Shown here piece after piece: positions 16,354 to 21,008 of a DNA stretch of 21,008 nucleotides. The position numbers were made by a program, and so were the translations under genes. The DNA comes from Candidatus Coatesiibacteriota bacterium (GTDB lineage: Bacteria > RBG-13-66-14 > B26-G2 > JAUVZD01). The stretch is taken from the NCBI GenBank assembly GCA_030602715.1, contig JAUVZD010000014.1, positions 1 to 21,008 on the forward strand, given 5' to 3'. Each line of letters starts with the position of its first letter. Position 1 is the first letter of the stretch. The notes under the pieces were generated by a model that searched no databases, was not told where the DNA came from, and was given only the letters and a program-made list of their open reading frames with translations.

Positions 16354-17064
16354 TTGAGTAAGATATTGATTTTCTTGCTTGCAATTGTCCTGTTTCCAGG
16401 GGCGAGCTTCGGACAGTACTTTGAGTTCGGCATTGTCCTGGGCGGCGGGGTGATGCAAGTGGGAGAGCTTTCCCATGCCACCACAGTTGAGGGGGAGACT
16501 ATCCCCTCCACCTTCCAGCAGTTCGGCGCGATAGTCCAGGTTGCCCCCAATGATTATTTGCTCCTCGGCGGAAGTATCAGCCGTCTGGTGAATAAACAAT
16601 ATGCAGGAAGAGGAACCCTCGCTCGTTTAGGGGGTTTTGAATATAATATCATCCTTGGCTGGGTTGTCTCCCACTGGATGGGAGCTGAATTTTATCCGTA
16701 TCTACATCTCGGTGGGGCGAGGACCAGCCTGCAGTTTTTTGGTGGGGGAGAGGGAAATGATTTTGGCGATATTGTAGCTGACCCCAGCCAGATGGCGGAT
16801 ATCTCCACCTCCGACTTGGTATTGGGTCTGGGATTGGGCGGTGAGTGGAGATGGGACCTGAACCCCGGCTCCGGCAAGGCACGGGGAATCGCCCTGGGTT
16901 TCCGGGTCGGCTTCAGAACCACCGTGGGTGGACCCAATTGGGAGATGGTGGGATACACTCTATCATCGGATGTGGCGGGAATATTCAAGGGACCGTATGC
17001 CCTTCTCAGCCTGTCATTTTTTACCACTATGAGCGAAAATGCAAAACCAAAAACCACAGGATGA
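16354..17064 (+). CDS. Predicted outer-membrane beta-barrel protein, paralog 2
   Basis: A 236-residue protein with a signal peptide (MSKILIFLLAIVLFPGASFG, cleaved before QYFEF) and a Gly- and aromatic-rich mature region. The start is TTG, with GGTGAAC upstream, 32 nt after the previous gene. It is a likely paralog of the preceding protein (shared DFGD block and same strand pattern). The expected barrel end is near ALLSLSFF; a further 13 polar residues follow, encoded by the stretch that overlaps the start of tadA by 26 bases. Whether that tail is real or a consequence of a late stop is open. Function unknown. Confidence 0.7.
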   Translation: MSKILIFLLAIVLFPGASFGQYFEFGIVLGGGVMQVGELSHATTVEGETIPSTFQQFGAIVQVAPNDYLLLGGSISRLVNKQYAGRGTLARLGGFEYNIILGWVVSHWMGAEFYPYLHLGGARTSLQFFGGGEGNDFGDIVADPSQMADISTSDLVLGLGLGGEWRWDLNPGSGKARGIALGFRVGFRTTVGGPNWEMVGYTLSSDVAGIFKGPYALLSLSFFTTMSENAKPKTTG

Positions 17065-17533
17065 GCGAACGGACCTCAGGGATGAGGACGCTGTTTTTAT
17101 GGAGCTTGCCCTGGAGCTGGCAGAGCGGGCGGAGGAGGCGGGGGAGGTGCCCATAGGTGCGGTGGTGGTGAGTGGCGGTGAGGTGGTCGGTAGAGGACGC
17201 AACCGCATAGAGGAGCAAGGTTCTGCCACCGCCCATGCAGAGATGCTGGCTCTGCAAGAGGCTTGCGCCCTGCTGGGACGACGACTCAGTGACTGCACCC
17301 TCTATTCCACCATTGAGCCTTGTCCTATGTGCGCAGGAGCAATTATACTCGCCAGGGTGGGTCGGGTGGTCTTTGGGGCGGAGGACCCCAAGTTCGGTGC
17401 GGTGGGTTCCGTCGTGAATCTTTTGGAAGGCGAACGCTTTAATCACCAGCCGGAAGTTACCCGTGGAATTCTGGCGGAAAGATGTGGAGAGCTTCTGCAG
17501 AGGTTTTTTAGAAGATTAAGATCCAGAGAATAG
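17039..17533 (+). CDS. tadA: tRNA-specific adenosine deaminase
   Basis: A 164-residue cytosolic zinc enzyme that converts adenosine 34 of tRNA-Arg(ACG) to inosine. The zinc and catalytic residues are H66 and E68 in HAEM and C95 and C98 in PCPMCAGA. FGAEDPKFGAVGS and the final helices fit TadA. The start ATG 17039 lies inside the preceding gene (26-base overlap). No clear ribosome site is seen, so coupling to the barrel gene is likely. A later in-frame ATG (17099) would remove part of the first helix and is less likely. The MQNQKPQDERTDLRD extension is a few residues longer than usual. No other member of a tRNA pathway is nearby. Confidence 0.93.
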   Translation: MQNQKPQDERTDLRDEDAVFMELALELAERAEEAGEVPIGAVVVSGGEVVGRGRNRIEEQGSATAHAEMLALQEACALLGRRLSDCTLYSTIEPCPMCAGAIILARVGRVVFGAEDPKFGAVGSVVNLLEGERFNHQPEVTRGILAERCGELLQRFFRRLRSRE

Positions 17534-17545
17534 ATAGATAAATGA

Positions 17546-17838
17546 TCAGGTGTTGGGAAGAGAGCGTGAAATTTATTAAATTACATATTGTGTTTTGGCG
17601 TTATTCTACATCCAGAATAAAACTCTGTTACTTCGCCGCTTCCCTTATCACCTGACGGTGGGCAATGAATGCCGTTACCTCAATTGCTACTACGGCGAAT
17701 CTCGGTTTTTGGTCTTGACCAAGGTGGTAGCGCCAGGATAACATTTATGAACTGAGGGATTTTGTGGTCCTGGATGGGGATAAGTCATTCCAACAATATC
17801 CAATACAGCCCCAGCCGATGGAGGTCGGGGCTTTTTTA
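17546..17838 (+). ncRNA. Candidate structured non-coding RNA with intrinsic terminator
   Basis: The 389-nt gap after tadA contains nested complementary segments. TCAGGTG (17546-17552) pairs with CACCTGA (17649-17655) and GGGAAG (17555-17560) with CTTCCC (17639-17644). Inside are GGCG/CGCC (17597-17600 with 17634-17637) and TTATTC/GAATAA (17601-17606 with 17615-17620). A second domain has GCTACTAC (17686-17693) with GTGGTAGC (17724-17731, one G-T pair) around a hairpin TTGGT-CTTG-ACCAA (17709-17722). A terminator closes it at 17807-17838. It lacks the recognisable marks of tmRNA, RNase P RNA or SRP RNA. I found no convincing promoter, so it could also be the tadA 3' untranslated region. A 17-codon open frame (17665-17718) lies within and is not supported as a gene. 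Confidence 0.45.
17807..17838 (+). terminator. Intrinsic terminator downstream of tadA
   Basis: AGCCCC (17807-17812) pairs with GGGGCT (17827-17832) around a partly paired interior, followed by TTTTTATT. On the minus strand there is no T-tract, so it serves the plus strand only. Confidence 0.85.
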
Positions 17839-17922
17839 TTATTTTTACTGATTGTGTCGTGCGAGCTTAAAGAATGGTGAGGGATGTGGAGGTTCCGATG
17901 GTGGGGCTTTCACATGCAGGGA

Positions 17923-19281
17923 TTATTGGCTGTTGCCCAGTTTTTTTAGCTTCCAAAGGGTGGAGATGATCAAGGCTGAGATGAGCATGGCGGAGAATAA
18001 CAAATGAGAGATGAACGGACTTAGGGGTGTGTCAGCGATGTATTTCCATCCCCAGTAATAAGCGGAGAAGAACCAGGCGAGGAAGAAGGCGGGGAGGGTC
18101 AGCTTTCTCCAGGGTTTGAGTGAATATAGCGCAGGAAAGAGCATGGCACAGATGGGCAAAAGACAGGCATAAGTATGTTCCCAGGCGATGGGGTTGGCAA
18201 TGGTTATGCATAGCATCACCAGCGCCAGTTCCAGAACACTTCTCTGGCGGTATACGCTCTCGTCTCCCAACTGCTTTCTGTCCTTGCGGGAGATCAGGAG
18301 CGGCAGAAAGATGCCCACTGCCAGGAGGAGAACTGTGCCTATTTTCGTCCCATAATACACGATTGGATGATAGGGTGCATAGCGCAAGTGAATTATTAAA
18401 CCGTTATCAAACAGCCTGTTGAGGAAGCCGTTTATAGACTGATTGGCGAAGAAAGCGTAGCCTTTGTCCGCCATGTGGAAGACGATTTTGGTGTTGTAGA
18501 TGAGGGTATTTGTGGGTCCGAAGAAGATAGCACCCAAGGATGTCATTATAGCGAAGGAGGCGAGTGCGGAGAGGAGTGCTTTCCAGCGTCTGCGCAGTGC
18601 CAGCCAGGGGAGGATGAGGAGGTAGTGGGGTTTAAGGGAGGCGAAGATGCCGACGGAGACGGCGGAAGCATTTTCCTTACCAGCCAGGAGGAGGAGTATG
18701 GCCAGGGTTTGAAGACCGGCGATGAGCACCTGGATCTGGTGGAGGTATAAGCCCCTTGCCAAGGGGTAGAAGGCGAGGGAGATGAGGAAGAGGGTTGTGT
18801 AGCCGAGGATTTTATCTTTGGGTTTTGGGAAGGGGGTGGGTTCGCCTGTGAACAGGCGCCAGGCGAGGAGGAAGATGAGGGGGATGATGATGGTTATGAT
18901 GATGGTTATGATGCTCAGGAAGATATTGACCGACTTTATGAATTCTTGGGGAGGGAAGTGAGGGAAGGGGAGGAGGACGAAGAGTATGGAGGGGCTCCAT
19001 GTGAGGGCGACATACTTATCGAACCAGAGGTGGGAGTAGAAGTCAAAGTTGTATCGCTTATGATTCCAGAGCAGGAATGCCTGGTAGGCTGGTCCAAGGT
19101 CGTGGAGGCTATCGGAGGGTAGAATGATGGCGGCATAGTCTTTCTGCACATTTGCTTTGTAGTCGCTGTTGGTCAGGGTTTTGTGGATATAAGGGAAGAA
19201 GAAAGAGGGGAGGAAGAGGAGGAAGAGGAGAAGTCCCACCAGGAATGTCAGCAGACCTTTTTGTATGCGGGGGTTGTGCAT
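17923..19281 (-). CDS. GT87/DUF2029 family membrane glycosyltransferase
   Basis: A polytopic inner-membrane protein of 452 residues with about ten hydrophobic helices, the GT-C architecture of polyprenyl-phosphate-mannose-using transferases. Family signs are the large first periplasmic loop with YNFDFYSHLWFDKY, the HQIQVLIAGLQTL helix, KPHYLLILPWLAL, FFANQSINGFLNRL, and ANPIAWEHTYACLLP near the C-terminal end. Sugar and acceptor are not known; a surface glycan or glycolipid is likely. It starts at ATG 19281 with no strong ribosome site seen. A TTGACA on the minus strand 21-26 bases before the start has no fitting -10. It converges on the tadA-side terminator and stands alone on its strand. 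Confidence 0.78.
   Translation of the reverse strand: MHNPRIQKGLLTFLVGLLLFLLFLPSFFFPYIHKTLTNSDYKANVQKDYAAIILPSDSLHDLGPAYQAFLLWNHKRYNFDFYSHLWFDKYVALTWSPSILFVLLPFPHFPPQEFIKSVNIFLSIITIIITIIIPLIFLLAWRLFTGEPTPFPKPKDKILGYTTLFLISLAFYPLARGLYLHQIQVLIAGLQTLAILLLLAGKENASAVSVGIFASLKPHYLLILPWLALRRRWKALLSALASFAIMTSLGAIFFGPTNTLIYNTKIVFHMADKGYAFFANQSINGFLNRLFDNGLIIHLRYAPYHPIVYYGTKIGTVLLLAVGIFLPLLISRKDRKQLGDESVYRQRSVLELALVMLCITIANPIAWEHTYACLLPICAMLFPALYSLKPWRKLTLPAFFLAWFFSAYYWGWKYIADTPLSPFISHLLFSAMLISALIISTLWKLKKLGNSQ

Positions 19282-20050: not shown

Positions 20051-21008
<958 letters not shown>

Follow-up and report, generated by a model that had tools for sequence, protein, structure and literature searches.

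A long stem-bearing stretch between tadA and a downstream intrinsic terminator in a Candidatus Coatesiibacteriota bacterium, probably an untranslated 3′ trailer

Introduction

The closest described counterparts of the stretch studied here are mRNA 3′ trailers with rho-independent terminators, which it resembles in following a coding gene on the same strand, in carrying no gene of its own, and in ending with a G+C-rich hairpin and a T tract. It is also like the bacterial small RNAs derived from 3′ UTRs, in that it occupies the last part of a coding transcript, whose terminator it uses, and like the bacterial large and small SRP RNAs (RF01854 and RF00169), in that it is about 270 nt long, has a rod-like minimum free energy (MFE) fold, and lies downstream of tadA. 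The SRP RNA gene adjoins tadA in many Firmicutes.

The window, that is, the whole stretch of DNA analysed, comprises 21,008 nt, and the gap of interest separates tadA from a convergent glycosyltransferase gene. A preliminary description had read this gap as a possible structured RNA, either an independent ncRNA or a long structured 3′ end of the tadA transcript. Here, we compare its structure with that of the surrounding genome, with known RNA families, and with related genomes, and weigh the two readings against others.

Results

The locus and its stems

The features of the gap and of the two genes on either side of it are as follows.

17039–17533, plus strand: tadA (tRNA adenosine deaminase-like), an ORF with its stop codon at 17531–17533; Pfam PF14437 (1e-42) and PF00383 (1.4e-29)
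17534–17806, plus strand: putative untranslated trailer, from the tadA stop to the terminator; 42% GC, without a supported ORF
17546–17655, plus strand: domain 1 stem, with outer and inner parts; local z −3.6
17686–17731, plus strand: domain 2 core, an 8-pair stem around a CUUG hairpin; stable in all folds
17807–17845, plus strand: intrinsic terminator, stem 17807–17812/17827–17832 with inner pairs (inner stem 17815–17828), then a T tract
17923–19281, minus strand: convergent glycosyltransferase family 87 (GT87) gene; Pfam PF09594 (6.5e-17)

No coding ORF is supported between tadA and the GT87 gene, as originally described; the longest plus-strand ORF beginning in the gap ahead of the terminator has 48 aa. 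A 37-aa ORF at 17542–17655 begins 9 nt past the tadA stop and covers the whole of domain 1; it has no Pfam match and no clear ribosome-binding site, and is probably due to chance.

The nested complementary segments of the preliminary description are all present. In domain 1, the outer stem is built in two parts, 17546–17552/17649–17655 with seven Watson–Crick pairs and 17555–17560/17639–17644 with six, again all Watson–Crick, and it encloses an inner stem of seven pairs (17601–17607/17614–17620). There are also a hairpin at 17655–17660/17670–17675 and a 5-pair closing stem at 17678–17682/17753–17757. In domain 2, the 8-pair stem (17686–17693/17724–17731, one G–U pair) contains the CUUG hairpin (17709–17713/17718–17722). 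The strong terminator reported to close the region near 17838 was likewise recovered: it is found on the plus strand only, 274 nt after the tadA stop, as a G+C-rich hairpin (17807–17832) of −14.7 kcal/mol followed by a T tract.

The length of the interval ahead of this terminator is the one real oddity of the gap. In our genome sample, a terminator could be detected behind 36 genes; the median distance from stop codon to terminator is 33 nt among them, and only 8 of the 36 reach at least 150 nt. Among the other long intervals are some that harbour tRNAs or a cobalamin riboswitch, and a long trailer here can therefore mean an RNA gene.

Not all of the stems are compatible with the best fold. 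The MFE structure of 17540–17845 is a long rod (−90.7 kcal/mol) in which the 5′ half pairs with the 3′ half and the domain 1 outer stem is excluded, while the best fold that keeps the outer stem is nearly isoenergetic with it (−89.2 kcal/mol). The pair probability of the outer stem ranges from 0.02 to 0.62 with the exact ends folded, and it is near 0 both for the small hairpin and for the 5-pair closing stem. The 8-pair stem of domain 2 and its CUUG hairpin are stable throughout the folds, with pair probabilities mostly between 0.7 and 0.98.

Upstream of tadA, in the part of the window that runs from 14874 to the tadA stop at 17533, lies a LivF-like ABC ATPase, and a very similar one stands beside tadA in a relative of the same order (G001, contig L012); the shared neighbourhood suggests old synteny. 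Between the ABC ATPase and tadA in the window are two proteins without a Pfam match, beta-barrel-like by eye. At the other end of the window, a 16S rRNA gene (20051–21008) runs off the contig end, so the right edge of the window is an assembly break at an rRNA operon.

Structure against shuffled sequence and genome background

Nesting of this kind had been called unlikely to arise from random sequence, and shuffling seems to bear this out: a two-part stem of at least 13 pairs appeared in only 1 of 600 shuffled copies of the gap. Yet the genome itself tells a different story. In 421 kb of background (a 400-kb sample of the same genome plus the window) there are 21 such stems with a span of at least 60 nt, nearly all inside coding sequence, and a 21-kb window should therefore hold about one; in the mostly non-coding stretches of the 421 kb, two were observed against about 1.5 expected. 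The density of such stems equals the genome background, and shuffles alone are the wrong yardstick. The value of the case is mostly one of calibration: a nested 13-pair stem can be striking both by eye and against shuffles, but at this background frequency stems are not by themselves sufficient reason to claim a new RNA.

Folding energies give a similar picture. The gap as a whole folds only slightly better than its shuffles (z −1.6 to −2.0) and ranks 28th among 94 gap strands from the same genome, where tRNAs lie in several of the strands that fold better; folding clearly beyond the genomic background, as expected of an independent structured ncRNA, was not found for the gap. Domain 1 taken alone has z −3.6 and outdoes all of its 200 shuffles, within limits that were picked once the stem was known; in 112-nt windows placed every 20 nt, the best z on the plus strand is −1.3. 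The domain 2 core has z −2.2 (5 of 200 shuffles as good). Over the full gap the minus strand has z −2.7 against −2.0 for the plus strand; measured against shuffles, its folding is at least equal, and there is therefore no strand signature.

Other gaps in the same genome (L159:17543–17756, L159:18396–18847, and L165:1082–1322) fold far better, with best local z values of −6.9 to −5.5, and no Rfam match lies over them at the gathering cut-off. Terminator hairpins may explain part of their folding.

Known families and related genomes

The preliminary description had proposed an Rfam run and a search of related genomes. Rfam 15 gives no match in the gap at the gathering cut-off, and at a relaxed threshold only snoR41 (E 2.5), a chance match, so no known class was recognised. 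ARAGORN finds no tmRNA in the window, the tmRNA of this genome being at C4:135428–135783, which agrees with the original judgement that neither tmRNA nor SRP RNA fits (for SRP RNA, see below). A literature search found nothing.

In the DNA search of 98 genomes, one other of the same order and 14 of the phylum, no homologue of the gap was found beyond its own genome. There it is present once, so it is not a repeat. Covariance models of the two domains (R1 and R2), which as single-sequence models have limited reach, matched only the gap itself across the 14 phylum genomes. The tadA gene is present in nearly all relatives, and its downstream flanks could be compared directly in G001 (L012), G003, G004, and G005, with G002 left out and G006 set aside for its masking with N at this place. 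In the order-level relative G001, a short hairpin is followed by an apparent convergent gene, and in the other three different genes follow; an equivalent of the gap structure occurs in none of the four. A contig scan with TadA brought up no close relative, its matches lying mostly in Firmicutes and other distant phyla. Conservation was thus looked for and none was found, an outcome that the preliminary description had named as speaking against its proposal, but which makes a weak test, because the nearest genome compared belongs only to the same order and the absence accordingly holds at order level and above.

SRP components in the class

A separate observation concerns the signal recognition particle. 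The M domain of Ffh/SRP54 (PF02978) was detected at E 0.001 in all 14 control genomes and in none of the 7 that represent the class, namely this genome (G000) and its relatives G001–G006. SRP RNA went undetected in 6 of the 7 class genomes, including two single-contig relatives, one of them with masked stretches; the exception is G001, which has an SRP RNA at L032:1501–1601. The one weak Ffh candidate in the 400-kb sample (E 0.004) falls in a protein that looks, on inspection by eye, like a PP2C-type phosphatase, and was rejected. Strong divergence or loss of the SRP in this class is possible judging from these searches, and the absent PF02978 and SRP RNA matches may reflect divergence, or the first-look filter of the search, rather than loss. 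If it holds, this observation could matter more than the gap itself.

Discussion

We believe, with a probability of about 0.6, that the tadA transcription unit continues through this stretch as an untranslated 3′ trailer and ends in an ordinary intrinsic terminator. RNA polymerase would read through tadA and then through 274 nt of non-coding, moderately AT-rich sequence, to be released at the strong terminator at 17807–17838, which would also protect the convergent glycosyltransferase gene from read-through. Like many gaps of this genome, the trailer would contain local stems, of which that at 17686–17731 is best supported, and these may delay decay from the 3′ end; a dedicated, selected RNA architecture would not be needed. 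We infer that transcription comes from upstream of tadA and that the stretch has no separate function. No sigma-70-like promoter was found ahead of 17546, in a lineage whose promoter consensus is not established, and the sole plus-strand match in the gap falls inside domain 2. Between the two proposals of the preliminary description, the tadA transcript with a long structured 3′ end fits what we see (same strand, no gene between, terminator at the end), while the independent ncRNA fares poorly, with no Rfam match, conservation, or promoter-like site, and with structure at background level. What counts against a plain trailer is its 274-nt length, together with a domain 1 that beats all 200 shuffles.

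These same two points speak for a small RNA specific to the lineage and confined to this genus or family, about 290 nt long, with two domains and the terminator. It would be transcribed from a promoter of its own within the last part of tadA, or else processed out of the 3′ end of the tadA transcript, and could work, for example, through base pairing or by binding a protein. The long terminated gap, the local z of −3.6 in domain 1, and a domain 2 core that is stable in every fold are what such an RNA could show; its absence from the relatives compared by DNA search and by R1 and R2, structure at the level of the genome background, two incompatible folds of nearly equal energy, the missing strand signature, and the lack of a promoter match in front, for what the unestablished consensus allows, all weigh the other way. 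We regard it as a less likely alternative, given some weight because the trailer is unusually long and some other long cases hold tRNAs or a riboswitch. Were it a true small RNA, it would be a further orphan RNA, from a lineage that has been little sampled.

A very divergent SRP RNA hidden in the gap would suit the rod-like MFE and would fill a vacancy, since the small and large SRP models of Rfam match nothing in this genome, and neither the core motif (with 3 mismatches) nor R3, a phylum-specific covariance model built from six phylum SRP RNAs, gives anything credible elsewhere in it (best E for R3, 6.9). The gap itself, however, does not contain the domain IV core GUCAGGnCCGGRAGGnAGCAGC, has no SRP match in Rfam at E up to 5, and with filters off reaches only 4.6 bits with R3, on the wrong strand; no such RNA occurs in the tadA flanks read from class members, nor was its binder, the Ffh M domain, found. 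We therefore reject this candidate as highly improbable. Hardly better is the remnant of a decayed gene or of a small mobile element with inverted repeats: several imperfect inverted repeats run across the gap and both strands fold, but the sequence is single copy in the genome, its small ORF has no protein-family match, and neither terminal repeats nor a target duplication were seen, which leaves this reading unlikely.

Returning to the described systems, the gap differs from RF01854 and RF00169 in lacking the SRP core motif and any model match, and from 3′ UTR-derived small RNAs in having neither conservation in the relatives compared nor a known processing site. The mRNA 3′ trailers are the nearest match, and against other gene ends of its own genome the putative tadA trailer stands out by its length, 274 nt against a median of 33.
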